Below, piece by piece: positions 5,788 through 35,484 of a stretch of 64,000 nucleotides of DNA. Made by a program: the position numbers and the translations under genes. The notes beneath the pieces were generated by a model. It ran no database searches. It had not been told where the DNA came from and was given only the letters and a program-made list of their open reading frames with translations. The stretch covers positions 62,001 to 126,000 of the forward strand of contig NZ_SMGI01000005.1 of assembly GCF_004346845.1 (NCBI RefSeq), read 5' to 3'. Origin of the DNA: Winogradskyella wandonensis. Lineage in GTDB: Bacteria > Bacteroidota > Bacteroidia > Flavobacteriales > Flavobacteriaceae. Within the stretch, counting starts at the first letter, position 1, and every line of letters starts with the position of its first letter.

Positions 5788-6240
5788 TTAGATAACTTCA
5801 ATTACTTTTTTCGGTGTTTCCTTAGTCGATTCTTTTTTCTGAAGATTAAGTCTAAGAATACCATCATTGTATACGGCCTTAATATCAGCCTTATCGTTAA
5901 CAGTTTCTGGTAATCTTAGTGTTCTTTTAAATGCATTGTAGCTAAATTCTTTGCGCATGTAGTCCTTATTTCCTTCTTCTTTCTCGGTCTCTTTTTTAGC
6001 AGAGACGTTAAGGACATGATTTTCTAAAGTAACTTCGAAATCGGATTTCTTAAAGCCAGGTGCCGCAAATTCTACTTCGAATTCTTTGTCTAATTCTTTA
6101 ACATTCATTGCAGGCATTAAAGAATCGTCATCAAAAAAGTCATCGCTAAACAAAAAATCATCTGAGCTAAAAAAATCTTTTAACTGATTGTTATTCCATG
6201 GGATTAATCTGTTTCGATTGTTAAATTTAATTAGTGACAT
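5788..6240 (-). CDS. small heat-shock protein, Hsp20/alpha-crystallin family
   Basis: 150 residues. The alpha-crystallin domain spans about residues 45-145: MNVKELDKEFEVEFAAPGF, then the loop with DYMRKEFSYNAFKRTLRLPE and the signature NDGILRLNLQKKE. The N-terminus is acidic and phenylalanine-rich (a run of F and D around residues 23-40). These ATP-independent chaperones hold unfolded proteins in soluble complexes. Upstream is one of the twelve CRP-like boxes at the standard promoter distance, giving a predicted leader of about 35 nt. A terminator follows the gene. Confidence 0.93.
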   Translation of the reverse strand: MSLIKFNNRNRLIPWNNNQLKDFFSSDDFLFSDDFFDDDSLMPAMNVKELDKEFEVEFAAPGFKKSDFEVTLENHVLNVSAKKETEKEEGNKDYMRKEFSYNAFKRTLRLPETVNDKADIKAVYNDGILRLNLQKKESTKETPKKVIEVI

Positions 6241-6279: not shown

Positions 6280-6323
6280 GTAATTTACTTATAACTATCA
6301 CCTTACGAAATGATTTTAATCAG
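6280..6323 (-). promoter_or_regulatory. CRP-like box and -7 element, hsp20 promoter
   Basis: Box ATGATTTTAATCAG at 6310-6323. Read on the minus strand, TAAATTAC (6287 down to 6280) starts 22 bp after it. This is the weakest -7 match of the twelve (six of eight bases). Predicted start of transcription is near 6275, before hsp20. Confidence 0.7.
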
Positions 6324-6329
6324 TTTACA

Positions 6330-7703
6330 CTAAATAATAAGCTGCTCTACATCCGTAATCTTAGGAACTTTCACAAGCCAATTATATTTTGTTTCTAGCT
6401 TAACTCTAAAAGCGTTAAGCGATGAGGCTTCGCCATGAATCAAGTACACCTTTTCTGGTACATTTTTAATTGTACTTAACCATTCGAGAAGTTCTTCTTG
6501 ATCTGCATGAGCAGATAAACTTTCGATATGATGTATTTCTGCATTAACTGGATAATATTTACCAAAAAACTTAAGTTCGTGAACGCCATCTAAAAGTTGA
6601 CGTCCTCGTGTACCTTCGGCCTGATAACCTACCAAGAGTACTGTGGTAGTTGGCTCGTCTATTAATTGCTGTAAATATGTTAGAACTCTGCCTCCGGTAA
6701 CCATGCCACTGCCAGCGATGACTACTTTAGGCCTTTTATCGTCTATAGTTTTCCAAGTTTCTCTATACGAGCTAATAATATTTACGTGATTACACATGGC
6801 GTAATAATCAGAAGTCGATAATCGGTGCCATTTTGGGAATCTTTTGAAAACATCCAAAACATTATTTCCCATAGGACTATCTATAAAAATAGGAATATTA
6901 GGGATTTTGTGCGCTTTGTATAATTTCCACAATATGTACATTAATGTTTGAAGACGCTCTACAGCAAAACTTGGTATAATAAGATTGCCCTTGTTATAAA
7001 TGGTTTTTGTAATAAGGTCTATAAGTATGGCTTCTACATCTTGTTCTGGATGCTTTTTATCGCCATAAGTACTTTCTACAAACAGATAATCTGCCCATTC
7101 TGGTTTTTTTGGGTCATCCAATAGATAATCATTAGTTCTGCCAATATCTCCAGAAAACACAAAGCGTTTTCCATTAATATTTATTTCTATAAACGTTGCC
7201 CCAATAATATGCCCATTATACTGAAACCTTGTAGATATATTGTCTGACAGAAGAACCCATTTATCTTCTTGAATCACTTCAAAAAATGTGATTGTTTTTT
7301 CAGCTTCTTCAATTGTATAGAAAGGTAAAGCTGGATTATGTTTGGTGTACTTTTCTTTATTCGCCTTCTTGGCTTCTTCTTCATGAATTTTGGCACTATC
7401 CAATAATATAATTTGAGCTATTGCAAGTGTTGGCGCAGTACCGTATACTTTTCCTTTAAAACCTTGCTTTATTAATCTTGGTAAGTAGCCTACGTGGTCT
7501 AAGTGACCATGAGTTAATAGTACTACATCGATGGAAGGCACATCTACAGGTAAATCAACCCAATTTAAAGTTCTTAACTCTTTTAGACCTTGGAACATTC
7601 CGCAATCTACAAGAATATTGCATTCTGAAGTTTCTATCAAAAATTTAGAACCAGTTACAGTACCTGCACCACCCAAAAAATTAACTTTTACTATTGGTTT
7701 CAT
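6330..7703 (-). CDS. MBL-fold, beta-CASP RNA metallohydrolase
   Basis: 457 residues. The metallo-beta-lactamase motif HGHLDH (H65, H67, D69, H70) supplies the two-zinc site. Further motifs are GHIIGA with a metal histidine, FSGDIGR with a metal aspartate, and the beta-CASP domain with SGMVTGG and SAHADQEELLEWL near residue 400. This is the architecture of Ysh1/CPSF73-like RNases found in bacteria (for example TTHA0252), so RNA cleavage or 5'-end processing is the likely activity. It is the last gene of a five-gene run starting at the stress-protein gene at 11124 and overlaps the preceding nuclease-like gene by 4 bp, implying coupling. RNA turnover during stress fits the context but is inferred. 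Confidence 0.85.
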   Translation of the reverse strand: MKPIVKVNFLGGAGTVTGSKFLIETSECNILVDCGMFQGLKELRTLNWVDLPVDVPSIDVVLLTHGHLDHVGYLPRLIKQGFKGKVYGTAPTLAIAQIILLDSAKIHEEEAKKANKEKYTKHNPALPFYTIEEAEKTITFFEVIQEDKWVLLSDNISTRFQYNGHIIGATFIEININGKRFVFSGDIGRTNDYLLDDPKKPEWADYLFVESTYGDKKHPEQDVEAILIDLITKTIYNKGNLIIPSFAVERLQTLMYILWKLYKAHKIPNIPIFIDSPMGNNVLDVFKRFPKWHRLSTSDYYAMCNHVNIISSYRETWKTIDDKRPKVVIAGSGMVTGGRVLTYLQQLIDEPTTTVLLVGYQAEGTRGRQLLDGVHELKFFGKYYPVNAEIHHIESLSAHADQEELLEWLSTIKNVPEKVYLIHGEASSLNAFRVKLETKYNWLVKVPKITDVEQLII

Positions 7704-8557
7704 TGCTTTTGTATTGAGTAATCACAGAGCAGCTCTATCTCGTTAAAGATTTTTTCTTTTCGTTCTTCCGATATCCCTAGATGATCTAAATAAAAAACAT
7801 CTCCGATAAGCTGCTTACACAAAACAATACTTCTACTTAATAAAAACTGTTTCTCTCGTTCTGTTAGTAATGTAGATACGGTTATTGGGTAAAGTCCCAA
7901 ACTGTCTATACGTTCTCGTAAACTTTCTCCATTTGGGTAATCCCAGCTTAGCAAGTACAAACCACAACAGCGACCGTATTTTACTGCATCTTCGGTAAAA
8001 CGTGTATTGGTTACTACCCATCCAGCGGTAAGCGTTGTCCCGTTATCACTTACACTATTCCAATGTTCTTTTACATCTTGAAACCTTGAATTAATGTACA
8101 ACGGAACTTTAACATTACAATTTAATCCTTCTTCTCCGTGAAATTTACATTCGATAATTGTTGTTTTATTTCCTTTATGCGCAACAACATCAATTTCGTG
8201 AGACACACATTTTCCTTGAAGTATTTCACCAACATAGGCATCGTAGCCAGAATGCTGTAATAATTCTTTTATAAATCTTTCGAACGGGAAACCCGTAGGA
8301 CCTAACTCGTATATGGCTTTTTTAAGCCGATACTTAGATGCCATATAGCTTTTCTTTTTTTTAAGCATGGCATAGGCTCTGTTATAAATTTCTTTTGTAG
8401 ATATTCCTTGATACAACTCGTCTCTTACCGTATCAATGATAGCGTTAATGGTCTCTCTATTTGCGCCAATTCGCTCTAAAGACGAGCGTAATTTATTTAT
8501 AGAGAATTTAACCTTTTCTCCACTAGATTTAATGATATCTATCTTATTTTTTTCCAT
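7700..8557 (-). CDS. ATP-cone domain fused to a Mrr-like restriction-endonuclease-fold nuclease
   Basis: 285 residues. Residues 5-88 form an ATP-cone, the nucleotide-sensing domain of ribonucleotide reductases and NrdR: IIKSSGEKVKFSINKLRSSL at the start and SYMASKYRLKKAI at its end. Residues 90-210 resemble PD-(D/E)xK nucleases of the Mrr type, with E121/D123 (HEIDVVA) and E136-x-K138 (IIECKF) as probable metal and catalytic residues. The tail is unassigned. It lies 13 bp after a universal stress protein gene and overlaps the RNase-like gene. I infer a DNA or RNA nuclease gated by ATP/dATP level; no methylase is present, so classical restriction is unlikely. Confidence 0.75.
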   Translation of the reverse strand: MEKNKIDIIKSSGEKVKFSINKLRSSLERIGANRETINAIIDTVRDELYQGISTKEIYNRAYAMLKKKKSYMASKYRLKKAIYELGPTGFPFERFIKELLQHSGYDAYVGEILQGKCVSHEIDVVAHKGNKTTIIECKFHGEEGLNCNVKVPLYINSRFQDVKEHWNSVSDNGTTLTAGWVVTNTRFTEDAVKYGRCCGLYLLSWDYPNGESLRERIDSLGLYPITVSTLLTEREKQFLLSRSIVLCKQLIGDVFYLDHLGISEERKEKIFNEIELLCDYSIQKQ

Positions 8558-10266: not shown

Positions 10267-11124
10267 TTATATGTTGCGTCTAATATTCTGCAATGCCAAA
10301 AACGGAATTTTGGTGTGTAAACAAAAATCATCTACCTTAGACCTAAAGAGCATATCCTCTAAAAAAGAATGTCTTGTATTAACCATGACCAGCAAGTCTG
10401 TCTCGTGGTCTTTAGCATAATTAGCAATAGATTTAGAGACATTTTTACTTTCTATATGTTTAAAATTTAATTCTAGATTAGCTAAGCCTTCTTCTAAGAA
10501 CGATTTATTATCTCTTTGTCTTTTGGACAGGTATTTACTTTTTGATATGTATAACAAATCTATGACTGACCTAAATGGAGATAGCAGCGTGTTTAATAGC
10601 TTTATTTCGCGTCTGCTATAAGGAATTAAGTAATTTGATGCGAAAAGAACGTTGTGAGGCTGTTTATATTCGTAAGAATGTGGGATGGCTAAAACTGGGC
10701 AAGACACATACTTTAAAACTTGAAGCGTATTACTACCAAACACGTATGTCTTAGAATAGGTTTCGCCTTTGGTACCCATTACTATGATATCTATATTTTT
10801 ACCAATAACTAATTTATCTACCTCATCTACTATAGAATTATAAGCAGAGACTAAGTGGTATTTAAATCTAGGATGCGGCGCTAATTTCTGCACCTCTTTC
10901 AGCAGCATATCCAACTTAAGCTTAGACCTGTTTTTGGCCATTTCAATTACCTCATCAAATGGCTCTTCTTCTAACAATTCGTGATTACTGTAAACTTCAT
11001 CTTCGTAAGCATTCAGAAAATAAAACTCTGTTTTTTCGTACTTAAAAAGTTGTAATGCATAGCGTATTGCATTCATTGAGTTCTCTGAAAAATCTGTTGG
11101 TATTAGTACGTTTTTCATAGCCAT
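10267..11124 (-). CDS. universal stress protein, two UspA domains
   Basis: 285 residues. Domain 1 has GTKGETYSKTYVFGSNT; the second domain begins VLFASNYLIPYS and is degenerate. First gene of the run 11124 to 6330 (three stress proteins, ATP-cone nuclease, beta-CASP RNase). The predicted transcription start from the upstream CRP-like promoter is near 11136, leaving a leader of only about 12 nt. A second ATG at 11118 (MKNVLIPTDFS) aligns better with its paralogues and may be the real start. Confidence 0.9.
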   Translation of the reverse strand: MAMKNVLIPTDFSENSMNAIRYALQLFKYEKTEFYFLNAYEDEVYSNHELLEEEPFDEVIEMAKNRSKLKLDMLLKEVQKLAPHPRFKYHLVSAYNSIVDEVDKLVIGKNIDIIVMGTKGETYSKTYVFGSNTLQVLKYVSCPVLAIPHSYEYKQPHNVLFASNYLIPYSRREIKLLNTLLSPFRSVIDLLYISKSKYLSKRQRDNKSFLEEGLANLELNFKHIESKNVSKSIANYAKDHETDLLVMVNTRHSFLEDMLFRSKVDDFCLHTKIPFLALQNIRRNI

Positions 11125-11140
11125 AGGTGTTTAATATCTA

Positions 11141-11184
11141 TAAATTTATGCACTAATAAGAGCTTAAACAATGATATATATCAG
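11141..11184 (-). promoter_or_regulatory. CRP-like box and -7 element, usp/nuclease operon promoter
   Basis: Box ATGATATATATCAG at 11171-11184. Minus-strand TAAATTTA (11148 to 11141) starts 22 bp after it and fits TAnnTTTA exactly. It drives the operon beginning at 11124. Confidence 0.8.
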
Positions 11185-11359: not shown

Positions 11360-11403
11360 TAAATGTAATAATACGATAGTATTTAAAAACTGATTAAAAT
11401 CAG
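11360..11403 (-). promoter_or_regulatory. CRP-like box and -7 element, candidate small RNA promoter
   Basis: Box CTGATTAAAATCAG at 11390-11403, within the perfect 20-bp inverted repeat 11387-11406. Minus-strand TACATTTA (11367 to 11360) starts 22 bp after it. It lies directly behind the stop codon of the gene at 11410 and points away from it. Confidence 0.7.
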
Positions 11404-11801: not shown

Positions 11802-12647
11802 TTATGTTTTTTCGTGAAGTACCAAGAATGGTATCTCTGTGTGATACGTTATTTTTTCTACTCTTGTGTGAAATAAAATCTGTTGAAAATAATTTAGATT
11901 TTTTGCAACCATAGCAATCATATCAACTCCTCTACTCTCTATAAAACATTGAATAGCCTCCTCTAAATGCGTATTTGTTAAATAATAACATTTGGTATTA
12001 AAATCAGTAAAGAAATCCTCTAAAATATCTTTATTTTTTTGCTGCTCGTAGTTTAACTTAGGCTTAGACTTAGTTACATGTAAAAAGCTGAGTTTGGCAT
12101 TAAAAGCCTCAATAATACTTAGTAGTGGTTTTAGAGTGTTAAAACTATTGAATGAAGAAAAATCCGTCGGAAAAGCAATTTCTTCAATATGTTTATAGGT
12201 ACAATCTTCTGGTACAACAAGTGTAGGGCATTTTACTTTTACCACGACGTCTCCCGCATTACTACCAATTATAATTTGTTTTAAGCCCGAGGCGCCTTTA
12301 GTGCCCATTACAATCAAATCAATATTTTTCTCAACAACCTGTTTCCTTATAGAATCTATGAAAAAACCATAATCTACTACGGTGTAAAACTTATGTAAAT
12401 TGGTATTTGAAAATTGTGAAATACGCTTTAAGATAGAACGAAGCTTTACTTTGGACGGTTTGATGTAAATGTCATTAATATCACTTTCGGAAGCAATAAA
12501 AGATGGGTCGTTTAAGGTTGTAAAACTTAGTGTGTTGATATGTAAAATATAAAAAACGCATTTTTTATCTTTTAAAAACTCCAAAGCATATTTAATAGCA
12601 TTCCATGAATTATCTGAAAAATCTGTTGGTAATAATACACTTGTCAT
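11802..12647 (-). CDS. universal stress protein, two UspA domains
   Basis: 281 residues; begins MTSVLLPTDFSDNSWNAIKYAL. The first domain carries GTKGASGLKQIIIGSNA; the second begins IAFPTDFSSFNSFN and ends ITYHTEIPFLVLHEK. Fourth tandem UspA protein of the window, separated from the other three by a membrane-protein gene and the candidate small RNA. It heads its own unit under a CRP-like promoter, with a leader of about 15 nt. Confidence 0.9.
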   Translation of the reverse strand: MTSVLLPTDFSDNSWNAIKYALEFLKDKKCVFYILHINTLSFTTLNDPSFIASESDINDIYIKPSKVKLRSILKRISQFSNTNLHKFYTVVDYGFFIDSIRKQVVEKNIDLIVMGTKGASGLKQIIIGSNAGDVVVKVKCPTLVVPEDCTYKHIEEIAFPTDFSSFNSFNTLKPLLSIIEAFNAKLSFLHVTKSKPKLNYEQQKNKDILEDFFTDFNTKCYYLTNTHLEEAIQCFIESRGVDMIAMVAKNLNYFQQILFHTRVEKITYHTEIPFLVLHEKT

Positions 12648-12666: not shown

Positions 12667-12710
12667 CAAATTTATAGGCTTTAAAAAAGGTTTAAAATGA
12701 CCTGTGTCAT
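12667..12710 (-). promoter_or_regulatory. CRP-like box and -7 element, usp/membrane-protein promoter
   Basis: Box ATGACCTGTGTCAT at 12697-12710, within AAAATGAC-N4-GTCATTTT. Minus-strand TAAATTTG (12674 to 12667) starts 22 bp after it, a perfect TAnnTTTG. Confidence 0.82.
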
Positions 12711-12725
12711 TTTCAAGGTATCCAT

Positions 12726-13775
12726 TTATGTAATTTGCTTTAATCCTTCTAAATCTAGCACAACAATATTTCGGCCTTCTGATTTAATAAGTCCGCTGCT
12801 TTTAAAGTTGGTAAGCGTTCTAATAAAAGTTTCCGTTGCAACACCAGCCACACTAGCCAAATCGTTTCTAGAAATTTTTATAGGATCATTTGTATGTCGA
12901 TTAATTTTTTCTGCAAACTGAATAATAGTATTGGCGGTTTTTTTATTTACAGAGCTATATGCCATTTCTAAAAGCTGATCTTTAACATTAGACAAATCAT
13001 CTGTTAGTAAGTCGATAAGCGCTACAGCAACTTTATGGTTATTGTTGAGTATTTCCGAAAGCTGATTAATGGAAACTCCCATAAGTTGCGTTTTTTCTAT
13101 TGCGGTTGCAGTTTCTTTATGCGCTATGGTATGTGTAAAAGAGGTATAACCAAATAAGTCATCTTCTTTATATAATGCAGTTGTTAACTCTTTACCATGC
13201 TCATCTAGCTTATGACATTTTACAGCGCCTTTAGAGATTAGATAAATTTGGTTAGAGTGGTCACCTTCGTTATAGATAATTTCATTTTTATCAAAACTTA
13301 ACTCCAAACCGTTATTATCAAAGTAGTTTTTTAAATCGTTTAAAGACCGAAGTTCTTCATTTTCTACCACTTTTTTTTCGAGTTTTCTTTGCTCTTTAAG
13401 TATCGCCACTTTTGCCAATCTGCTTTTTATGGCACTCACTAGTTCATCTTCTGTAAAGGGTTTTGTTATGTAGTCGTCCGCACCCATATTCATACCTTTT
13501 CGAATGTCTTGATGTTCTGTTTTAGCAGAAAGGAAAATAAAGGGTATATGACTTGTTTTAGAGTTTGCAGAGAGTTGTTCCAATACCTTATATCCGTCCA
13601 TTTTTGGCATCATAATATCACAAATAATTATATCTGGAGTTTCAGCTGCTGCAATTATTAAACCTTTCTTACCATTAGAGGCGGTAATAACCTGATAGTT
13701 TAAAAGCTCTAATAATTCCGCAGTATTATCTCTTAACACAATATCATCTTCTATAAGTAAAACTTTAGTCTGCAT
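12726..13775 (-). CDS. response regulator with CRP/FNR-type DNA-binding output
   Basis: 349 residues in three parts. A receiver (1-120) has D10/D11, phospho-acceptor D53 in IICDIMMPKMDG and K105. A linker helix follows (120-150). The cyclic-nucleotide-binding-like beta roll (about 153-260) includes IIYNEGDHSNQIYLISKG. The CRP helix-turn-helix (285-349) has recognition helix residues TETFIR, keeping the E315 and R319 that read TGA in CRP and FNR. Only two cysteines are present (52 and 187), so there is no FNR-type Fe-S cluster. It overlaps the kinase gene by 11 bp. It is the best candidate to bind the twelve TGA-N6-TCA boxes around it; that link is inferred from helix residues, site geometry and location. 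Confidence 0.9.
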   Translation of the reverse strand: MQTKVLLIEDDIVLRDNTAELLELLNYQVITASNGKKGLIIAAAETPDIIICDIMMPKMDGYKVLEQLSANSKTSHIPFIFLSAKTEHQDIRKGMNMGADDYITKPFTEDELVSAIKSRLAKVAILKEQRKLEKKVVENEELRSLNDLKNYFDNNGLELSFDKNEIIYNEGDHSNQIYLISKGAVKCHKLDEHGKELTTALYKEDDLFGYTSFTHTIAHKETATAIEKTQLMGVSINQLSEILNNNHKVAVALIDLLTDDLSNVKDQLLEMAYSSVNKKTANTIIQFAEKINRHTNDPIKISRNDLASVAGVATETFIRTLTNFKSSGLIKSEGRNIVVLDLEGLKQIT

Positions 13776-15648
13776 GAGAAGTTGGTATTTGTAATATCAC
13801 TGTTGTGCCTTTATTTTCTTTACTCGTTATAGATATATTGCCGCCTAAATTTTCTGTATGCGTTTTAGCAATGTTAAGACCAATCCCTGTTCCTTGCATA
13901 TGAAGTACATTTTCGGCTCTAAAGTATCTTGTAAATATGTTTTCTAAATCTTTCTCGGGAATACCAATGCCCTGGTCCTTTACTGCTATTTGCGTAAAGC
14001 CATTTTCTAGCGTTATTTTTATATCTATTTCAGAGTTTTCGTTTGAATACTTTACTGCATTTAAGACAATATTGGTTAGTACTAACTCTAAAATTCTTTC
14101 GTCTTGATACATGGCTATATCATCGATATTATCAGGGTAATTTATGCGTTGACCTTCTTTTAATAGCATATTTGCATTGTAAACCACCTCATTAATTACT
14201 TTACTAAGATTAAAATGACTAAACTTATAGTTTACTGCCCCAGCTTCTAAACGTTCTAAAGATAAAAAGTCGTTAAGAATATTATTGAGATAATGTACCT
14301 TATCTTTTATAATTCCCAAGTGTTTGTTTCTTTTATCCTGTTCTTTTTCTTGATTATACTTCTCTAGAAGCATTACGGACGTAGATATACCACTTAAAGG
14401 CGTTTTAAACTCATGAGAAACCAAGGATAAAAATTTTGTTTTAAGCTCATTAAGTTCTTTTTCTTTACTCAGAGCAATTTGTAATTGTTCTGTTCTCTCT
14501 TTTACCTTATTTTCTAACCTGTTTAAATAGTCTTTCTGCTCTGTAATATCGGCAATTATAGAGGTAAATACAGGTTTTTCGTTAAGATAAGATAACTGCA
14601 GATGGACGTTTACAGGATAGGTTGTACCATCTTTTCTTTTGTGTTCTGTTTCAAATTCTATCTTTTCTTTTTCTTTATTAAGTAGTGGCTGAATGTAATT
14701 TGTCTTAAAGTCTTTTTCTTCGATAGTTATTTTTAAATCTAAAGGTGACATTGTTTCTAGCTCTTCTAAAGAATAGCCTATATTTTCTATGGCGCCTCGA
14801 TTTACAGATATAAACTTTAAACTGTAAGCATCAAAAACATAAATTTCGTTTAAAGACTCATTAAAAATTGTAGCTAAGTGACTACGCTCTTCCTCGGCTC
14901 TAATACGCTTGGTTACATCATTTTGTATGCCAATAAAGTTGGTAATAACACCACGTCTGTTTGTAATTGGTGTTATGTATAAATCGTTCCAAAACAAAGT
15001 ACCATCTTTTCTGTAATTACGAAGAGTTACCAAACAACTCTCTCCAAGTTTAATTGCTTTTCTAAGTTTATCGAGCTCTTCTTGCTTTCGGTCTTCTCCT
15101 TGCAAAAACCTACAGTTTTTACCTATAACCTCTTCTCTAGAATAGCCAGTTAGCTCAATAAAGGCATTATTGCAGTAAATTATTGGATTATCCGGTTTCT
15201 GCGCATCGGTAATTAAAATACCGTTGCTTGCAGATTCTAGAGCTTTACTACGTAGCATAAAATCGTATTCGCTCTTTTTTTGTTCAGAAACATCCCTTAT
15301 TAATGCCATGACGTAAGTTTTGTCATAGATTTTAAAAGGATTAAGTTCTACCTCTATAGGGATAATATCTCCTGATTTTGTTAGACCGTACACATCCGTG
15401 GTCTTAGCCATTCGACGCTGTGTATTAACTTCGATAAATTCTTTTACATATTCGGCATGTTTACCATGATAATTTTGAGGAATAAGAATATCTAAATGTT
15501 TATTCTTAATATCTAATTTATTGTAACCAAATACCGTTTCCGCTACGCCATTAATTTCCATTATATTCTGATTTTCATCAACAATAACTACGGCTTCTGA
15601 AACTGTCTCTAGAAGAATATTGAATATTTCTTGGTCTTGCCCTATCAT
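13765..15648 (-). CDS. PAS-LOV-PAS sensor histidine kinase
   Basis: 627 residues, no transmembrane segment, so cytoplasmic. PAS 1 spans about 10-120. The second sensor domain (about 132-250) has the full LOV signature: GKNCRFLQG with C179, then N211 (RNYRKDG), N221 (FWND) and Q242 (FIGIQNDVT), the residues that bind FMN and form the light-induced cysteinyl adduct. PAS 3 is about 258-370, then a coiled coil, HisKA with H412 in SHEFKTPLSG, and HATPase with DQGIGIPE and GTGIGLNIAK. It overlaps the CRP-type regulator gene. Blue-light or flavin-redox sensing is the likely input; other PAS domains may bind haem or small ligands. Confidence 0.93.
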   Translation of the reverse strand: MIGQDQEIFNILLETVSEAVVIVDENQNIMEINGVAETVFGYNKLDIKNKHLDILIPQNYHGKHAEYVKEFIEVNTQRRMAKTTDVYGLTKSGDIIPIEVELNPFKIYDKTYVMALIRDVSEQKKSEYDFMLRSKALESASNGILITDAQKPDNPIIYCNNAFIELTGYSREEVIGKNCRFLQGEDRKQEELDKLRKAIKLGESCLVTLRNYRKDGTLFWNDLYITPITNRRGVITNFIGIQNDVTKRIRAEEERSHLATIFNESLNEIYVFDAYSLKFISVNRGAIENIGYSLEELETMSPLDLKITIEEKDFKTNYIQPLLNKEKEKIEFETEHKRKDGTTYPVNVHLQLSYLNEKPVFTSIIADITEQKDYLNRLENKVKERTEQLQIALSKEKELNELKTKFLSLVSHEFKTPLSGISTSVMLLEKYNQEKEQDKRNKHLGIIKDKVHYLNNILNDFLSLERLEAGAVNYKFSHFNLSKVINEVVYNANMLLKEGQRINYPDNIDDIAMYQDERILELVLTNIVLNAVKYSNENSEIDIKITLENGFTQIAVKDQGIGIPEKDLENIFTRYFRAENVLHMQGTGIGLNIAKTHTENLGGNISITSKENKGTTVILQIPTSHAD

Positions 15649-15710: not shown

Positions 15711-15754
15711 CTGACGAATATCATTCTTTAATTAGTGCTATTAAAATAAATTAG
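15711..15754 (+). promoter_or_regulatory. CRP-like box and -7 element, terB-like/thioredoxin promoter
   Basis: Box CTGACGAATATCAT at 15711-15724. TAAATTAG (15747-15754) starts 22 bp after it, seven of eight to TAnnTTTG. It lies in the divergent gap with the kinase gene, whose own -7 candidate (minus-strand TATCTTTA, 15682-15675) is 6 bp off the standard spacing. Autoregulation of the kinase operon is possible but less certain. Confidence 0.68.
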
Positions 15755-15778: not shown

Positions 15779-16147
15779 ATGACTAAAGAATTATCACAAA
15801 AACTAGGATGCTTATTCTATGCTATTGCCAATGCAGATGGTAAGCTGAGTAATGAAGAATACGACCGTTTTATTAGTTTTACAAAAAAGAAATGGAAGCA
15901 CCTTGGCGCGGAAGACTATAAATACATGAAAGATGCGTTTAACGAGTTAAAAGCATCAAACGCCAATCCAAACGACTGTTATAGTGATTTTGTAGAATAC
16001 TTAAAACACAACCCATCTCTTTTTTCCGAAGAATTAAAAAGACTTATCTTAAAAACAGCTAATAAAATTGCTTATTCCTTTGCTGGTATAAATAAATCCG
16101 AACTTATTATGTTAGCAAAACTTAGTCTTGAATTTAAAAAATATTAG
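15779..16147 (+). CDS. TerB-like helical protein
   Basis: 122 residues. The first helix pair contains AIANADGKLSNEEYDRF, the acidic ADGxxxxEE motif of TerB/DjlA-type domains that bind metal or form part of membrane stress complexes. The rest is predicted all-helical. No other tellurite-resistance gene is nearby, so the name refers to fold only. It is 3 bp from the thioredoxin gene and behind a CRP-like promoter with a leader of about 20 nt, divergent from the LOV kinase. Confidence 0.65.
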   Translation: MTKELSQKLGCLFYAIANADGKLSNEEYDRFISFTKKKWKHLGAEDYKYMKDAFNELKASNANPNDCYSDFVEYLKHNPSLFSEELKRLILKTANKIAYSFAGINKSELIMLAKLSLEFKKY

Positions 16148-16463: not shown

Positions 16464-16507
16464 TTGACCAATATCATTTTGAAAACTCTAAGTAGATACT
16501 ACATTTA
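16464..16507 (+). promoter_or_regulatory. CRP-like box and -7 element, WG-repeat gene promoter
   Basis: Box TTGACCAATATCAT at 16464-16477. TACATTTA (16500-16507) starts 22 bp after it. Predicted leader to the ATG at 16534 is about 22 nt. Confidence 0.78.
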
Positions 16508-16533: not shown

Positions 16534-17142
16534 ATGAAAAGACTAGTGTTACTATTAGCTACTTTATTATTAAGTTCTACAAAAATTAATGCTCAAAAGC
16601 TAAACGACATAAGTTTTATTTCGCCATATAATGATGGTGTCGCTGCAATACAAAAAAATAATCAATGGGCCTTTATTAATGTCGAAGGCAAAATAGTGGT
16701 TGACTATAGAGATGATTTAGTGTTAACGACTTTTGAAAAGAATAACTATCCCGTATTTAATTCTGGACGCTGTTTAATTAAAGAAGTAAAGGACGGTATA
16801 TCGTATTTTGGTTACATAGACAAAGACGGAAATACAATCGTAAAACCTCAATACTTAAATGCTACAAATTTTGAAAATGGACTGGCAATTATACTAGAGC
16901 TACATAAAAACAATATTGGCAAAAACGATGTGTTAGACAAGAAAATGATTGATTATAGCTACACGGAATCAGCAATAAATCCAAACGGAAAAATAGTTCA
17001 TTTTCTATCAGATAAACCAACCCATATCACACTATCCAAAGATTATATAAAAATCCCTCCAGAAATTAAATCTAAGTTTATTTCTGAAACCCTTGTCGCA
17101 CAAAAGAATGGGGATAAAACATGGTCTATAAAGGCTTTATAA
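16534..17142 (+). CDS. secreted WG-repeat protein
   Basis: 202 residues with an N-terminal signal peptide (KRLVLLLATLLLSSTKINAQ). Two WG/KWG-type repeats are visible: NDGVAAIQKNNQWAFINVEGK (residues about 34-54) and the stretch with FGYIDKDGNTIVKPQY, FENGLAII. Such repeats form beta hairpins and occur in exported proteins of Bacteroidota; their role is unknown. The C-terminal 60 residues have no recognised domain. It is a single gene in the regulon, with its own box and the next box right behind it. Confidence 0.7.
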   Translation: MKRLVLLLATLLLSSTKINAQKLNDISFISPYNDGVAAIQKNNQWAFINVEGKIVVDYRDDLVLTTFEKNNYPVFNSGRCLIKEVKDGISYFGYIDKDGNTIVKPQYLNATNFENGLAIILELHKNNIGKNDVLDKKMIDYSYTESAINPNGKIVHFLSDKPTHITLSKDYIKIPPEIKSKFISETLVAQKNGDKTWSIKAL

Positions 17143-17185: not shown

Positions 17186-17229
17186 CTGATTAAGGTCATT
17201 CTTATTCTACATAAATTAAAATATTTTTA
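17186..17229 (+). promoter_or_regulatory. CRP-like box and -7 element, flavin-binding protein promoter
   Basis: Box CTGATTAAGGTCAT at 17186-17199. TATTTTTA (17222-17229) starts 22 bp after it. Predicted leader is about 15 nt. Confidence 0.75.
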
Positions 17230-17248
17230 GTTCAAAACCATATATACC

Positions 17249-17707
17249 GTGATTAGAGCTTTAAAAGATATTGAAAGTAAACATCTACTATCCTATAACT
17301 ATATAGGACACTTATCTTATTTATTTAAAGACAAGCCTTATGTACTTCCTATTACTTATTATTACGATGTTTTAAATAATATAATCATTGGATATTCTGG
17401 AAAAGGACATAAAATAAGAGCTTTGCGCATTAATAATCAAGTAGCTATGGAAGTCTCCGAAATAGAATCGGTAAACAATTGGAAATCCATTTTGGTACAA
17501 GGTTCTTATAAAGAGTTTGAAGGTAGTACAGCAAAAATAAACCTTCATAAATTCTCAGAAGGTGTTAAAGAAGTTATTAGCAAAAAAGAAGGCAAAGATC
17601 TGAAATATCTTAGCGAATTTTCGAGTAAAATATATAAAGAAGGTCCGCCAATAGTTTTTAAAATTAATGTTGAAGAAATAACAGGAAGAGAAAGAAAGCA
17701 TAGTTAA
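17249..17707 (+). CDS. pyridoxamine 5'-phosphate oxidase-like flavin-binding protein
   Basis: 152 residues with a GTG start; no ATG lies near, and the predicted transcription start at about 17234 supports it. The split-barrel fold of the PNPOx-like/NimA family is seen in GHLSYLFKDKPYVLPITYYYD, IIGYSGKGHKIRALRINNQVAMEVSE and the WKSILVQGSYKEFE strand. Members bind FMN or related flavins and reduce or detoxify small molecules; homologues occur in dormancy regulons of other phyla. Monocistronic under a CRP-like promoter. Confidence 0.8.
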   Translation: MIRALKDIESKHLLSYNYIGHLSYLFKDKPYVLPITYYYDVLNNIIIGYSGKGHKIRALRINNQVAMEVSEIESVNNWKSILVQGSYKEFEGSTAKINLHKFSEGVKEVISKKEGKDLKYLSEFSSKIYKEGPPIVFKINVEEITGRERKHS

Positions 17708-17893: not shown

Positions 17894-17937
17894 TTGATGA
17901 ATATCATTGTTCTACGTTTGCATATTCTCTTCCTTTG
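17894..17937 (+). promoter_or_regulatory. CRP-like box and -7 element, ytfI/gerW-like promoter
   Basis: Box TTGATGAATATCAT at 17894-17907. TTCCTTTG (17930-17937) starts 22 bp after it, seven of eight to TAnnTTTG. A TTG codon at 17935 lies inside the -7 element, so translation must start later, at the ATG at 17953. The gap 17708-17893 shows nothing else I can support. Confidence 0.7.
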
Positions 17938-17952
17938 AGCAAAACTGAAACC

Positions 17953-18462
17953 ATGATATGGCTAGTTATCATACTGCTATTACTATCAATCCTTTTGTAT
18001 CTGCTATTAGTACCAATAATTGTGGTAATAGACACGATTAACAACACGTATTATTTAGAATTAAAAGGTTTAGCTAAAGCTAGTGTGATTGAAGATAATA
18101 TTGAAGTTTTAAAGATAAAAATGAGAATATTATTCTTCAAATTTTATATGTATCCTCTAAAGAAGATGGCCATTAAAAAATCAAAAAAGACTAAAGTCTT
18201 AAAACCAAAAAATGAGAGATTTATTAACTCTAAAAACTTAAAAAGAGTATTACGAGTTATAAAGTCCTTTAACATTAAAAAATTCTATATGAATTTAGAT
18301 ACTGGGGATTACGCAGCAAACGCGAAGCTTTATCCTGTCTTTAGTTTTTTAAACTTTTACAAAGCAACAAATTGCAATGTAAACTTTGTCGGAGAAAACA
18401 ACGTGCAGCTTATTATACAAAACAGGCCTGTACGGATTATAAAATCATTTATTAATCTTTAA
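17953..18462 (+). CDS. DUF2953-like (YtfI-type) membrane-anchored protein
   Basis: 169 residues from the ATG at 17953. An N-terminal transmembrane helix (WLVIILLLLSILLYLLLVPI) is followed by a basic soluble domain with LELKGLAKASV and a LDTGDYAANAKLYPVFSF stretch that resembles the TGDpa motif of DUF2953. In Bacillus, ytfI (DUF2953) stands directly before ytfJ/gerW; here the next gene, 11 bp away, is a GerW-family protein. This matching synteny supports a call that the sequence alone makes only moderately. Confidence 0.6.
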   Translation: MIWLVIILLLLSILLYLLLVPIIVVIDTINNTYYLELKGLAKASVIEDNIEVLKIKMRILFFKFYMYPLKKMAIKKSKKTKVLKPKNERFINSKNLKRVLRVIKSFNIKKFYMNLDTGDYAANAKLYPVFSFLNFYKATNCNVNFVGENNVQLIIQNRPVRIIKSFINL

Positions 18463-19888: not shown

Positions 19889-20671
19889 CTAATGTTTAAA
19901 AAATGCTTTAATCTTAGGGTCTTTAGAAATAGACAGTTGTGCATAAGCGCCTTCCGCATAATTAATTCCATCTATTAATAAAATCATACGGTCAGAAATC
20001 ACTCTTGCACAATCAACATCATGCGTAATAATTAGTGAAGACGTTCCATATTTTTTCTGAATTTCCTGCATTAATATTATTATTTCCTTAGCCGTAATTG
20101 GGTCTAATCCACTCGTAGGCTCATCGTATAAAATTATTTTGGGCTGTAGAATCAAGGTTCTAGCCAAAGCTACGCGTCGTTTCATACCGCCAGATAATTC
20201 AGAAGGCATTAAATCTATAGCTTCAGCTAGTCCAACATTTTCTAAAGCCTTAATAACCAAAGAATTTGTATCTACATTACCATCAAATTTTTCTGAGTGA
20301 CGTCGCAAAGGAAATTCTAAATTTTCTCTCACCGTCATAGAATCATACAGAGCACTTCCTTGAAATAAAAAGCCAATATCTGCTCTAAGGATATCAAGCG
20401 TTTCTTGATTCAAAGTTGTAATATCTTTACCCATTACAGAAATAGAACCTTTATCTGCTTCCATTAAACCTACTAGACACTTAATCATTACAGATTTCCC
20501 TGACCCTGATTTCCCCATGATCACTAAGTTTTCACCTTTGTGCAAAGTCATATTAAAACCGTTAAGCACACGATTATCTCCAAAACTCTTGTGTAAATCT
20601 TTAATTTGAAGAACTATGTCTTTTTGATTCATAGTATTAGTATGCTTTGATATGTGTTCACCTTCACTCAT
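19889..20671 (-). CDS. ABC transporter ATPase, MlaF-like
   Basis: 260 residues. Walker A GKSGSGKS (53-60), Q-loop around FLFQGSALYDSMTVREN, signature LSGGMKRRVALAR, Walker B IILYDEPTSGLDP and switch histidine in ITHDV. The SALYDSMTV segment is characteristic of MlaF, the ATPase of the MlaFEDB phospholipid transporter. It overlaps the permease gene by 4 bp (ATGA). A shorter start at MNQKD (residue 14) is possible. Confidence 0.93.
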   Translation of the reverse strand: MSEGEHISKHTNTMNQKDIVLQIKDLHKSFGDNRVLNGFNMTLHKGENLVIMGKSGSGKSVMIKCLVGLMEADKGSISVMGKDITTLNQETLDILRADIGFLFQGSALYDSMTVRENLEFPLRRHSEKFDGNVDTNSLVIKALENVGLAEAIDLMPSELSGGMKRRVALARTLILQPKIILYDEPTSGLDPITAKEIIILMQEIQKKYGTSSLIITHDVDCARVISDRMILLIDGINYAEGAYAQLSISKDPKIKAFFKH

Positions 20672-21450
20672 AAATCATAAAAAATATCGGTTACAAACAC
20701 AGCAATAAAATCAATAACAAAGAGTAATAAGGACGTAAAAACTACTGCAGAATTAGCTGCTTTACCTACTCCTGCCGTACCTTTTTTACAGTAGTAACCT
20801 TTAAAACAACCAACTAAACCAATGGCAAAACCAAAGAAAAAAGACTTTATAGTGGCTGGTATTATATCTCCAAACTCTAATGAATTAAAAACTTGATTAA
20901 AGTATAAAGTGAAAGAAACGTTTCCTTTTAAAATTTCTACTAAAAATGAGCCATATAACGCCACTGCATCTCCGATAATTACCAAAAGCGGTAACATTAT
21001 TGTAGTTGCTACTATTCTTGTAACCACTAAATATTTAAATGGGTTGGTACCTGAAACTTCCATGGCATCGATTTGCTCCGTAACTCGCATAGAACCAAGT
21101 TCAGCTCCGATACCAGAGCCTATTCTACCTGCACAAACTAATGCTGTTATCATGGGGCCAATTTCACGCACAATCGAAATGCCAACCATAGATGGCATCC
21201 AAGATACTGCCCCAAATTCCATTAAAGTAGGTCTTGTTTGCAGAGTTAAGACAAGTCCAATGATAAAACCTGTAATTATTACTAACAATAAAGAGCGGTT
21301 ACCCATGCTATAGCATTGACGTAACAGCTCTTTAAACTCAAATGGTGGCTTTACCGACTCCTTAAAGTAGCGTCCTGCAAAATAAGATAGCTCTCCAATT
21401 TCTATAAAAAAGGAATCTATTTGCTGTCTTAAGCTTTGGATACTTAGCAT
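20668..21450 (-). CDS. ABC transporter permease, MlaE-like
   Basis: 260 residues with five to six membrane helices. Family landmarks: GFIIGLVLTLQTRPTLMEFGA, REIGPMITALVCAGRIGSGIGAELGSM and ATIKSFFFGFAIGLVGCFKGY, all hallmarks of MlaE/TTG2 permeases that move phospholipids between the membranes of Gram-negative cells. First gene of mlaEFD-like operon; no MlaB or MlaC partner is adjacent. A CRP-like promoter stands upstream with a predicted leader of about 15 nt, which places membrane-lipid trafficking in the regulon. Confidence 0.93.
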   Translation of the reverse strand: MLSIQSLRQQIDSFFIEIGELSYFAGRYFKESVKPPFEFKELLRQCYSMGNRSLLLVIITGFIIGLVLTLQTRPTLMEFGAVSWMPSMVGISIVREIGPMITALVCAGRIGSGIGAELGSMRVTEQIDAMEVSGTNPFKYLVVTRIVATTIMLPLLVIIGDAVALYGSFLVEILKGNVSFTLYFNQVFNSLEFGDIIPATIKSFFFGFAIGLVGCFKGYYCKKGTAGVGKAANSAVVFTSLLLFVIDFIAVFVTDIFYDL

Positions 21451-21469: not shown

Positions 21470-21513
21470 CAAATTTATAGGAATATACTTGCTCCAGAAA
21501 TGATTATAATCAT
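21470..21513 (-). promoter_or_regulatory. CRP-like box and -7 element, mlaEFD-like operon promoter
   Basis: Box ATGATTATAATCAT at 21500-21513, a perfect palindrome. Minus-strand TAAATTTG (21477 to 21470) starts 22 bp after it. It lies in the 74-bp gap between the DsrE-like gene and the permease gene. Confidence 0.85.
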
Positions 21514-21524
21514 TTAACAAGCAA

Positions 21525-21998
21525 CTAGATAAACAATATCTGAGTACCTTCTTGATCTGCTCTATTATAGAAGTCTCCAATGGTTAAAATACCATCTAAG
21601 TCGTCAATAAAATCCTCCTCTTCTAGATGAAACATTTCTACAGCTAGCTTACATGCCCAAAGCTTACATCCAGAATCTGAAAGTATCTCCAAGAATTCTC
21701 CTATTGGTGGCATGTCTAGTTTTTCCATTTCTTTTTTCATCATTTTGGTAGCTAATGCCTCTACCCCAGGTAAACCACCCAACATTGTAGGTATGTGCAT
21801 TGCAGGGTTACCAACTGTTGCAACATGAAGGTGTTCTAGTTTTTTCTTCTGTATGGCTTCTAATCCAAAAAAGGTGAAAAATATCTCTGACTCTATACCT
21901 TCCATACGTGCGCCATTAGCCATGACAAAAGCCGCGTAAGCATTCTCAATTGTAGCTTTAGACAGTATAAAAAGCATTTTTTTAACTTTAGTGCTCAT
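21525..21998 (-). CDS. DsrE/DsrF/DrsH-like sulfur-carrier family protein
   Basis: 157 residues. The opening KKMLFILSKATIENAYAAFVMANGARMEG is the typical DsrE-like Rossmannoid strand-helix pair, and the tail has DSGCKLWACKLAVEMFHL with the two cysteines of the large DsrE2/DrsH type. Such proteins bind persulfide sulfur. Its position 18 bp behind a DsrC/TusE-type gene and an SQR-like oxidoreductase supports persulfide relay. Last gene of that operon; the next gene has its own promoter. Confidence 0.8.
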   Translation of the reverse strand: MSTKVKKMLFILSKATIENAYAAFVMANGARMEGIESEIFFTFFGLEAIQKKKLEHLHVATVGNPAMHIPTMLGGLPGVEALATKMMKKEMEKLDMPPIGEFLEILSDSGCKLWACKLAVEMFHLEEEDFIDDLDGILTIGDFYNRADQEGTQILFI

Positions 21999-22016
21999 GA
22001 TTTATTAATTTAAGTT

Positions 22017-22325
22017 TTAGATACAACTTTTAGGTTTTGGAATACCTGCTATTAAAGTAGATTTTTTTAAAGGTCCTCCTGGAAATAGATTATAAAACTC
22101 TTTAATGTTTATAACACCACTACGCTTTATACCTCTTATAGATAAAGGTTCTTCTTTGCGATGCTTATCTTGGAGATACTCTATAACTTCCCAATGCTTT
22201 TCCGTCATAACAACATTACATTCGCCCGCTATACATTCACAAACTTCTCGGTCCCATTGCTTAAAGTCTATTAAATAGCCTTCTTCATTTACGTCTATTT
22301 CTCTATTTGCAATTAACTTTTTCAT
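22017..22325 (-). CDS. TusE/DsrC/DsvC family sulfur-relay protein
   Basis: 102 residues, the usual family length. The start IANREIDVNEEGYLIDFKQWD and the C-terminus AGIPKPKSCI match TusE/DsrC, with the penultimate cysteine C101 that carries persulfide. The second C-terminal cysteine of true DsrC, about ten residues earlier, is absent (K/S/T there), so it resembles TusE-type carriers rather than the dissimilatory DsrC. Extra cysteines at 29, 31 and 36 are unusual. No sirohaem sulfite reductase is nearby. Middle gene of the SQR-DsrC-DsrE operon. Confidence 0.85.
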   Translation of the reverse strand: MKKLIANREIDVNEEGYLIDFKQWDREVCECIAGECNVVMTEKHWEVIEYLQDKHRKEEPLSIRGIKRSGVINIKEFYNLFPGGPLKKSTLIAGIPKPKSCI

Positions 22326-22364
22326 GATTTCTAAATTTTTGATTCTATATTTATTTTAAACTTA

Positions 22365-23600
22365 CTATTCAAAATTCTTTCCTTTCAGAGACATCTTGGA
22401 GGGTACAAATGGTATAGGGATGCCTTTTAAAAGCATATTCCAATAAATCCATCGAAAAGCCAACTTACCCCAATGATTCATACGGTTTTCCTTTAGTAAA
22501 CTCATCGGACCGATACCTTGAAATGGAAACTTTCCTTCTACTGGCTCATGGTCGTAATTAAAGTCTATGAGTAAGGCTTTATTATTTCCTGTTTCTACAA
22601 AACAGTTGGCATGACCATCAAATTCTTCTTTTAAAGGCTTTCCTTCAATATATCTAAGGATGTTTTCTTCAAGTATTTCAGCTTCAAAATGCGCTACAGA
22701 GCCTGCTTTTGATGTTGGTAAGTTGGTAGCATCTCCGATGACAAAAATATTTTCATGATTCTTAGACTGTAACGTGGTCTTATGTGTAGGGATAAAATTT
22801 AGCTCATCACCTAAACCAGAGCGCTCTATAAGTTCATCACCCATATTTGTAGGTACTGTAACAAGCAAATCATACTCAACTTCAACATCTGCATAGTCAA
22901 CGATTTTGTTGTTCTTATAATCCACACGCTCTATATTAAAGTCAACCACTTCTTTAATGCCTTTTTCTTCTAATAAATGGTGTAATGCTTTAGTAGCTTT
23001 TGGCTTAGTAAATGCACCACTTAGTGGCGTAATATAGGTTATATCTACTTTGTCACGCATCCCTTTTTTTCTAAAATAGGAATCCGCTAAAAATGCAAAT
23101 TCTAGAGGCGCAACAGGGCATTTTATTGGCATTTCTGTAATATGCACAACAAGTTTTCCGCCTTTCCAATCACGCAGTTTATCTCGTAGAGCTTTAGCGC
23201 CTTCATAAGTATAAAAATCAAAAATGGTTTTGTACCAATCCGGCCCAGACATTCCATCAATCTCTTCTGGGGCAGTCTTAGAGCCAGTAGCTACTACGAG
23301 TATATCATAGGGCAGTATTTCATCACCTTCTAGTTCTATAGTATTAGCGTCTGGATTGATAAGCTCTATCTGCTTCTGCACATAATTAACACCGCTAGGG
23401 ATAAACTTTTTACCTTCTTTTTTTACTTGCTTCTCAGTGTAAATATCAAAAGGCAAAAACAAAAATCCTGGCTGATAATAATGCGTTTTGTATTGGTCTA
23501 TGATGGTAATTTTCCAGTCTTTCTTTGGAAGCTTTTTTACTAAATGATTAGCCATCATTGTACCAGCTGTACCTGCTCCTAATATGATTAAATTTTTCAT
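22365..23600 (-). CDS. sulfide:quinone oxidoreductase-like FAD flavoprotein
   Basis: 411 residues. FAD-binding GAGTAGTMMANHL at residues 8-20, second dinucleotide motif near 98-108 (YDILVVATGS) and NIFVIGDATNLPTSKAGS. The only two cysteines, C161 (in KCPVAPLEFAF) and C333, sit where SQRs have their redox pair, and the C-terminal amphipathic helices (from about 375) suit membrane attachment. SQR oxidises sulfide to persulfide and feeds the quinone pool. It heads the operon with DsrC- and DsrE-type carriers, under a CRP-like promoter with a leader of about 43 nt. Confidence 0.85.
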   Translation of the reverse strand: MKNLIILGAGTAGTMMANHLVKKLPKKDWKITIIDQYKTHYYQPGFLFLPFDIYTEKQVKKEGKKFIPSGVNYVQKQIELINPDANTIELEGDEILPYDILVVATGSKTAPEEIDGMSGPDWYKTIFDFYTYEGAKALRDKLRDWKGGKLVVHITEMPIKCPVAPLEFAFLADSYFRKKGMRDKVDITYITPLSGAFTKPKATKALHHLLEEKGIKEVVDFNIERVDYKNNKIVDYADVEVEYDLLVTVPTNMGDELIERSGLGDELNFIPTHKTTLQSKNHENIFVIGDATNLPTSKAGSVAHFEAEILEENILRYIEGKPLKEEFDGHANCFVETGNNKALLIDFNYDHEPVEGKFPFQGIGPMSLLKENRMNHWGKLAFRWIYWNMLLKGIPIPFVPSKMSLKGKNFE

Positions 23601-23647: not shown

Positions 23648-23691
23648 TAAAGTTACTGTGATACAGCAGAAACTCGCATGACATCTGTCAT
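23648..23691 (-). promoter_or_regulatory. CRP-like box and -7 element, SQR operon promoter
   Basis: Box ATGACATCTGTCAT at 23678-23691. Minus-strand TAACTTTA (23655 to 23648) starts 22 bp after it. It is one of two boxes in the divergent 323-bp gap before the porin gene; each box has its own -7 element. Confidence 0.82.
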
Positions 23692-23784: not shown

Positions 23785-23828
23785 ATGATAATTGTCATGT
23801 ATCCCTCATTATTCTGCCCGTAATTTTG
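23785..23828 (+). promoter_or_regulatory. CRP-like box and -7 element, FadL-like porin promoter
   Basis: Box ATGATAATTGTCAT at 23785-23798. TAATTTTG (23821-23828) starts 22 bp after it, a perfect TAnnTTTG. Predicted start of transcription is near 23833, giving a leader of about 91 nt before the ATG at 23924. Confidence 0.82.
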
Positions 23829-23879: not shown

Positions 23880-23906
23880 CATTCAGCATGATTTTTTTGC
23901 TGAATG
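23880..23906 (+). promoter_or_regulatory. 5'-leader hairpin before the FadL-like gene
   Basis: Inverted repeat CATTCAGCA / TGCTGAATG with a 9-nt loop, inside the predicted leader and 17 bp before the ATG at 23924. It overlaps an alternative ATG at 23888. It has no U run, so it is more likely an mRNA-stability or translation element than a terminator. Confidence 0.45.
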
Positions 23907-23923
23907 CCATAAAAACTCTCATC

Positions 23924-31167: not shown

Positions 31168-31211
31168 ATGACATTCGTCATAATAATTAGGTGCTATAGC
31201 CTGTAATTTTA
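31168..31211 (+). promoter_or_regulatory. CRP-like box and -7 element, SLC13/pckA promoter
   Basis: Box ATGACATTCGTCAT at 31168-31181. TAATTTTA (31204-31211) starts 22 bp after it. It is 7 kb from the main cluster of boxes. Predicted leader about 21 nt. Confidence 0.8.
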
Positions 31212-33075: not shown

Positions 33076-33101
33076 ATAAAGACAATAAAAATAATTTACT
33101 C

Positions 33102-34739: not shown

Positions 34740-34754
34740 TAATTCCATGATTTG

Positions 34755-34780
34755 GAGAGCCCATTTCTGGGCTCTCTTTT
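34755..34780 (+). terminator. terminator after pckA
   Basis: 8-bp stem GAGAGCCC / GGGCTCTC with ATTTCT loop, followed by TTTTCATTTT. It lies before the ATG at 34795, which supports that start for the next gene. Confidence 0.88.
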
Positions 34781-34794
34781 CATTTTATTTATTT

Positions 34795-35484
34795 ATGAAA
34801 GTTACCCTATCCTTAAGCCTTTTCTTATTCTCAACTTTTTTAATAGCCCAAAATCCTTCAGAAGATTATTTAGGTTCTTGGTACACCTACGGCAGCAATC
34901 ACAGACTTAGCGAAAGATTTAGTTTAAGTCCTTACGGGGAATTGCGCTTCTATGAGCCTTCTTCCAACTACAATCTTGCTTTTTTCTCTCTGCGAGGTAG
35001 TTACCATTTTAAGAACAATCAATCCGTAGGTTTGGGATACGCGTACTTGGATATTGATACCGTTTTTGAATTTGATAACGAGCCCAATGTTCATGAAAAC
35101 CGAATATTCGAGAATTACTCGGTACAAAAAACATTCGGAAAATTTTTGCTTACACACCGAGCACAATTAGAACAACGTCTTTTAGATTTTAAAGATAGAA
35201 ACGAAATTCAGAATAGATTAAGATATCGCATTGGCTTGAAATATGTTTTGAATAGCACTTTTTCTGTAAAAATAACTGAAGAACCTTTTATCAATTTTCA
35301 AGACCAAGTATTTCATGAAAACAGATTTTATGCTGGTTTAGATATAAAAATATTGAAACACTCTCAACTTCAAATAGGCTATCTAAAACAACATATTAGA
35401 AAAAATAACCTAAATAGAATACAAGTTGGTGTAAGTATAAAAACTGACCATAGAAAGCCTAAGCATTTAACAGCTGTTCTATAG
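34795..35484 (+). CDS. DUF2490 outer-membrane-like beta-barrel protein
   Basis: 229 residues from the ATG at 34795; an earlier in-frame ATG at 34747 would place the terminator inside the gene. Signal peptide KVTLSLSLFLFSTFLIAQ. The mature part alternates aromatic and charged strands (GSWYTYGSNHRLSERFSL, RAQLEQRLLDF, NRLRYRIGLKY), the DUF2490 pattern of an 8- to 10-strand barrel. Function unknown. Its last 26 bp overlap the convergent transsulfuration gene. No promoter is evident, so read-through past the pckA terminator may matter. Confidence 0.8.
   Translation: MKVTLSLSLFLFSTFLIAQNPSEDYLGSWYTYGSNHRLSERFSLSPYGELRFYEPSSNYNLAFFSLRGSYHFKNNQSVGLGYAYLDIDTVFEFDNEPNVHENRIFENYSVQKTFGKFLLTHRAQLEQRLLDFKDRNEIQNRLRYRIGLKYVLNSTFSVKITEEPFINFQDQVFHENRFYAGLDIKILKHSQLQIGYLKQHIRKNNLNRIQVGVSIKTDHRKPKHLTAVL

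Follow-up and report, generated by a model that had tools for sequence, protein, structure and literature searches.

A 64,000-nucleotide stretch of the 2.96-Mb Winogradskyella wandonensis genome (contig NZ_SMGI01000005.1, positions 62,001 to 126,000; hereafter, the window) encodes a sensor histidine kinase with a LOV domain and an overlapping response regulator that joins a receiver to a CRP-type DNA-binding module (hereafter, the receiver-CRP regulator). Taking all the evidence together, we lean towards reading this pair as a natural light-and-oxygen kinase that drives a phosphorylation-controlled class II activator. The two genes share 11 bp, and their parts are arranged as follows.

13765..15648, minus strand: sensor histidine kinase PAS1-LOV-PAS3-HisKA-HATPase, 627 aa
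15271..15627, minus strand: PAS1, predicted DosP/FixL-type heme PAS, residues 8-126 (H64 codon 15457-15459)
14887..15258, minus strand: LOV domain, residues 131-254 (reactive C179 codon 15112-15114)
14494..14886, minus strand: PAS3, residues 255-385
13780..14442, minus strand: HisKA, residues 403-470 (H412 codon 14413-14415), and HATPase, residues 516-623
12726..13775, minus strand: response regulator with receiver, cNMP-binding fold and Crp-type helix-turn-helix (HTH), 349 aa (D53 codon 13617-13619)

In the proposed mechanism, PAS1 would bind heme and most likely report oxygen or another heme ligand, and the LOV domain would bind flavin (FMN) and report blue light via a C179 adduct. Both inputs, whose direction of effect is itself a prediction, would be relayed to H412 via PAS3 and the coiled coil, and H412 would phosphorylate D53 of the receiver-CRP regulator. 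The phosphorylated regulator would then work as a class II activator: bound to TGAYNNNNRTCA boxes whose centres lie at -41.5, it would turn on a local stress and redox cluster, i.e., universal stress proteins (USPs), an Hsp20-like protein, an FAD-type oxidoreductase with a DsrE-like protein, and a transporter-PEPCK operon.

The first-pass annotation of the window had described an overlapping pair made of a photoactive-type LOV kinase and a partner without FNR-type cysteines, and this description held when the named residues (C179, N211, N221, Q242 and H412 in the kinase, D53 in the partner) were checked on the sequence. Pfam placed PAS_9 in three stretches of the kinase (158 bits against a cut-off of 27), with HisKA and HATPase on the same chain as the LOV. 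The middle PAS domain is a LOV: its best solved-structure matches are LOV proteins, covering approximately residues 134-254 (E down to 3.8e-37), and LOV crystal structures match the LOV part of a structure model of residues 1-256 (mean pLDDT 78). The reactive Cys in GxNCRFLQ and the flavin-binding Asn, Asn and Gln are all present. Across 42 aligned LOV rows from kinases adjoining receiver-CRP genes (39 once L078, L084 and L112, judged to be second copies, are set aside), C179, N211 and N221 are invariant, Q242 is kept in 40, Q183 in 41, and R180, a variable place, in 36. No Cys-less relative was found among the kinase PAS domains matching this LOV at 1e-25, and this kinase is the sole LOV match in the genome at 1e-22. 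From these residues, the LOV domain is very probably photoactive. Individual variants carry Leu (L114) or His (L126) at Q242, FMHG in place of FLQG (L046), or CSFLQ together with a lost PAS1 His (L075).

To place the LOV domain among relatives, we compared orthologous operons. At 1e-30, the regulator was detected in 25 of the 37 genomes of genus group g1 (counting the genome analyzed here) and in none of the remaining 23 in the relatives set; at 1e-60, 193 of 395 genomes from the class had it. A total of 24 orthologous kinases came from g1 relatives, 13 with LOV and 11 without. With named genomes added, 60 orthologous operons comprised PAS1-LOV-PAS3 (n = 28), PAS1-PAS3 (n = 12) and PAS1-only (n = 20) kinases; this set and its tree leave out the three second copies, loci L089 and L104, loci in which no kinase was found, and rows with core identity below 50% except seven outgroup rows. 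On the tree, the best count of LOV changes is 5, and at least 3 are forced by well-supported branches. The LOV domain is thus optional, the variable part of a system whose constant part is the receiver-CRP regulator. A strict motif scan (GKN or GxNCRFL) had suggested that relatives lack LOV, a result overturned by the 13 same-genus relatives that carry it, and these relatives and the tree changes likewise rule out a LOV gain confined to this species.

A survey of 397 Flavobacteriaceae genomes, with a threshold that favours close relatives of this LOV, gave 59 LOV matches in 56 genomes, at least 33 of which adjoin a listed receiver-CRP gene. The coupling is accordingly not special to the window, where it had been singled out as the most novel element. 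LOV domains also occur in several kinases of 840-1100 aa and in one of 669 aa, which adjoin paralogous regulators. Two odd-length LOV frames beside the regulator (G511 C1:4098956 and G488 C4:763946; 508 and 832 aa) are probably other sensor combinations.

The repeated coming and going of the domain, with its 5 changes, is what would be expected if the LOV were a decaying or neutral passenger between PAS1 and PAS3. We consider this highly improbable: the Cys and both Asn stay invariant in all 42 rows while neighbouring residues vary, and the distance from the end of PAS1 to the end of the LOV is fixed at 125 residues in 28/28 LOV-containing kinases.

The first-pass annotation assigned no function to the first PAS domain, which by sequence belongs to the DosP/FixL heme type. 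In a single-sequence comparison, the solved structures closest to PAS1 were heme PAS domains, those of DosP and FixL; DosP also gave the top matches of the structure model when both PAS domains were covered. A 38-row PAS1 profile matched DosP at 2.3e-22 and FixL at 2.5e-21; of its 14 entries at or below 5.4e-17, 13 were DosP or FixL and the other was 10jx, and the next was a LOV protein at 1.1e-9. H64 lies within helix 58-73 of the structure model, i.e., in helix F at the heme-ligand column, and stands opposite DosP H77 in an ungapped alignment (position from the printed chain numbering, with which the title of the R97A structure agrees). We take DosP H77 to be the heme ligand. Of 66 aligned PAS1 rows, 64 retain H64, as do all 38 rows of set A1. 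A His is also present in 35 of 40 further kinases, which share six outgroup rows with the 66 and include L078, L084, L104 and L112 of the orthologous group; the five without it are LOV-containing kinases of 924-1105 aa with a weak PAS1 match.

Several features of PAS1 speak against an oxygen-sensing heme domain. In the ungapped alignment, T84 stands opposite DosP R97, which presumably corresponds to the FixL distal Arg R220, and K82 takes the place of the DosP distal Met. Assuming the roles of these distal residues in FixL and DosP, PAS1 may differ from both in its ligand and affinity. The kinase of L075 has a full-length LOV and a Tyr at H64, L118 is also without the His, and at residues 76-84, the loop that follows helix F, model confidence falls below 50. 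According to the accessible part of PMC10468136, the His is missing from 40% of that PAS cluster, so that membership of the cluster does not always mean heme binding. Given the profile matches and the retention of H64, heme binding by PAS1 nonetheless appears reasonably likely, and oxygen is probably an input of the kinase.

The absence of both distal residues, the 40% figure and the conservation of every LOV photochemistry residue would all fit a light-only or flavin-redox kinase, in which PAS1 serves as a spacer or has a different ligand and the LOV is the real sensor, as the first-pass annotation had it. The 64 of 66 rows with H64 run counter to this view, as do the 32 of 60 orthologous kinases that are without LOV and keep PAS1, the regulator and often the boxes. 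The LOV therefore cannot be the basic sensor, and we regard a light-only kinase as unlikely. On the best reading, the LOV was added to an older oxygen-type pathway, which relatives operate in its absence.

The geometry of the linker fits such an exchange of sensors. The distance from the Asp at the end of the last PAS domain to the phospho-accepting His is 45 residues in 28/28 LOV-containing and 12/12 PAS1-PAS3 kinases, and 73 (n = 15) or 80 (n = 5) in the 20 PAS1 kinases, so that all classes are equal modulo 7. This is suggestive of one coiled-coil register kept while sensors were swapped. Heptad periodicity is described for engineered LOV-FixL kinases in the portion of PMC4469895 available to us.

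In the partner, Pfam identified Response_reg (residues 5-117), cNMP_binding (159-246) and HTH_Crp_2 (281-348). The output domain is thus of the CRP kind, and a NarL/FixJ-type HTH, which would place the protein with FixJ, is absent. The receiver residues E9, D10, D53 and K105 and the recognition residues E315 and R319 are found in 61/61 orthologous rows. The sole cysteines are C52 and C187, and the cluster-binding set of FNR is missing. The Winogradskyella jejuensis counterpart of the regulator shares 89% identity with it.

The boxes belong to the locus, as first proposed. A total of 16 TGAYNNNNRTCA sites occur in the window, of which 12 are intergenic, against a mean of 0.43 (maximum 3) when the intergenic DNA was mononucleotide-shuffled 500 times. 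The boxes are intergenic in 96 of 120 cases at loci with LOV, in 64 of 81 at loci without LOV, and in 61 of 69 at paralogous receiver-CRP loci, and seven control motifs gave 0-5 intergenic sites each per group (with or without LOV). The same boxes in relatives with and without LOV indicate that the output side is independent of the LOV.

The boxes also have a preferred position. Of 214 box-to-gene orientations, 139 have the -7 element TAnnTTT starting at +29 relative to the centre of the box; counting either orientation, the element has this spacing at 71 of 96 boxes at LOV loci, 50 of 64 at loci without LOV and 9 of 12 in the window. In Flavobacterium psychrophilum, the -7 element is located at -12 to -5 (accessible part of PMC9723704). 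A box peak 29 nt before an element at that position puts the box centre at -41.5, the class II position, which agrees with the geometry first proposed; class II membership rests here on transcription starts inferred from TAnnTTTG. We consider class II activation by the receiver-CRP regulator well supported by this geometry and quite likely to be correct. The individual boxes are listed below with the matching bases out of 6 of TAnnTTTG at +29.

12698..12709, minus strand: box TGACCTGTGTCA for USP gene 11802-12647, with TAAATTTG at +29, 6/6
15712..15723, no strand assigned: box TGACGAATATCA between the kinase and 15779-16147, phased to the plus-strand gene (5/6), not to the kinase (1/6)
11172..11183, minus strand: box for the USP operon beginning with 10267-11124, 5/6
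11391..11402, minus strand: second box before 10267-11124, 272 bp from its start, 5/6
6311..6322, minus strand: box for Hsp20-like gene 5788-6240, 4/6
16465..16476, plus strand: box for 16534-17142 (WG repeat), 5/6
17187..17198, plus strand: box for 17249-17707 (pyridoxamine-phosphate-oxidase-like), 5/6
17895..17906, plus strand: box before 17935-18462, 5/6
21501..21512, minus strand: box before 20668-21450 (MlaE), 6/6
23679..23690, minus strand: box before 22365-23600 (FAD-type oxidoreductase, then a 102-aa gene and a DsrE-like gene), 5/6
23786..23797, plus strand: box before 23888-25321 (outer-membrane FadL-like), 6/6
31169..31180, plus strand: box before 31237-35484 (CitMHS/TrkA-C transporter, PEPCK, DUF2490), 5/6

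A box follows the regulator gene at 27/28 LOV, 13/13 PAS1-PAS3, 15/20 PAS1 and 2/7 outgroup loci (the PAS1-PAS3 group in box and residue counts has 13 rows, with L060 counted twice for one paralog). Other features of the boxes fit the proposed output less well. Their number per relative varies from 2 to 10 (2 at L061, 3 at L060), and a box close to where the kinase gene starts occurs at 25/28 LOV, 10/13 PAS1-PAS3, 10/20 PAS1 and 2/7 outgroup loci. Given this patchy distribution and the phasing of the 15712 box to the divergent gene, autoregulation is not general.

The genome also encodes an FNR-like protein (C1:413 kb) that has CESC at its start and a recognition helix nearly that of the receiver-CRP regulator. 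Its gene is divergent from one for a heavy-metal P-type ATPase, near the ccoN/ccoO and ccoP genes. The same box type precedes the P-type ATPase, FNR-like, cbb3 oxidase, hemN, pfkA, SCO1 and PPK2 genes. Some of these are oxygen-limitation genes (cbb3 oxidase, the P-type ATPase beside the FNR-like gene, and hemN), and this, together with the heme type of PAS1 and its retained ligand His, leaves the first proposal of control by phosphorylation rather than by oxygen without support. Among 18 boxes outside the window, hand-picked as promoter-like among the matches listed and hence not a fair genome sample, 6 have the element at +29, 4 at +28 and 1 at +34, and 7 are without it. In this set (L213-L231), the element is found at +28 as well as +29, as against near-uniform +29 at receiver-CRP loci, and the two regulators might be told apart by an offset of a single base.

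The near-identical recognition helices, the shared box type and the 6 of 18 hand-picked boxes at +29 would also be explained if the boxes were mainly those of the FNR-like protein, with the receiver-CRP regulator using other sites or only modulating FNR sites. This is improbable in our view: the boxes are dense at the receiver-CRP locus despite a whole-genome count of 182 against 152 for the reversed pattern (too noisy for that count to serve as a test), paralogous receiver-CRP loci are boxed too, and two genomes in which no FNR-like gene was detected, G001 and G015, keep 18 intergenic boxes at the locus, 14 of them at +29. Two considerations temper our reading of the boxes as targets of the receiver-CRP regulator. 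With completeness of 95% for G015 and 83% for G001, an FNR-like gene might have been missed in these genomes, and some boxes may be the FNR-like protein's own or sites shared by both regulators.

Within the local cluster, the ATP-cone gene 7700-8557 is a marker that follows the receiver-CRP gene across genomes. Among the 25 genomes that have the regulator, 21 carry a close ortholog of this gene, against 0 of the 12 that lack the regulator (p 1e-6, descent not corrected); one regulator-free genome, G008, has a 50% relative. The box-led genes at 21525-23600 (FAD-type oxidoreductase, 102-aa gene and DsrE-like protein) look like sulfur or persulfide handling. The USP operon includes a beta-CASP metallo-beta-lactamase nuclease (6330-7703), for which type VII Cas14, the best named model, was rejected (389 bits against a cut-off of 800, and no CRISPR gene call). 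Elsewhere in the window, the 1067-aa product of 39793-42996 may be a cytochrome c biogenesis fusion, with similarity to CcsB in its C-terminal part (174 bits against a cut-off of 188).

A hint of a LOV companion comes from rhodopsin, which was found in 6 of 14 receiver-CRP genomes with LOV versus 0 of 11 without (Fisher p 0.02, descent ignored), and also in 6 of 12 genomes without the regulator. Two microbial rhodopsins are encoded in the genome analyzed here (G000 C1:190514-191236 and C1:128002-128649). The first lies downstream of a box-led gene group (L213), at a distance of about 110 bp; that group starts with a metallo-beta-lactamase/rhodanese protein, which we read as persulfide-dioxygenase-like.

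The system is built from known parts. FixL-FixJ-FixK is the oxygen system of rhizobia, with which the present system shares a heme-type PAS kinase (predicted here), an FNR/FixK-type box and oxygen-limitation genes under the same box type; it differs in combining receiver and CRP in one protein, in the absent distal Arg and in the added LOV. The receiver-CRP regulator would look as if FixJ and FixK had been fused. It shares with FNR and CRP the CRP fold, the box type and the class II position, but has no FNR cysteine set and would be controlled via its receiver. LOV histidine kinases are represented by LovK and Brucella LOV-HK, which likewise carry a reactive-Cys LOV on a soluble histidine kinase; here, an extra heme-type PAS precedes the LOV, and the partner is a CRP-type DNA-binding protein. 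Moglich and colleagues (2009, 2010) reportedly joined the LOV of YtvA to FixL to obtain YF1 and engineered light-and-oxygen kinases. These also have a LOV joined to a FixL-type kinase, but they were designed, whereas the kinase described here is natural, has the order PAS1-LOV-PAS3, and is paired with a receiver-CRP output instead of FixJ. YF1 is described in the available portions of PMC4469895 and PMC6798134. No description of a LOV kinase coupled to a receiver-CRP regulator was found in the open-licence PubMed Central literature (subscription papers lay outside the search).

Beyond this species, there is about an even chance that these operons represent a widespread Flavobacteriaceae photoreceptor class, in which blue light and oxygen meet in one kinase with a phosphorylation-controlled CRP-type class II output, the LOV has been repeatedly gained and lost, and sister species share a regulon with and without light input. 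The value of the system lies in its natural pairs with and without LOV and in its likeness to the engineered kinases. If the reading is true, it would be a natural version of the engineered LOV-FixL and light-and-oxygen kinases, present in many marine flavobacteria. The fixed box position would allow simple reporters, and the otherwise alike orthologous operons with and without LOV would provide ready controls for what light adds to an oxygen response.

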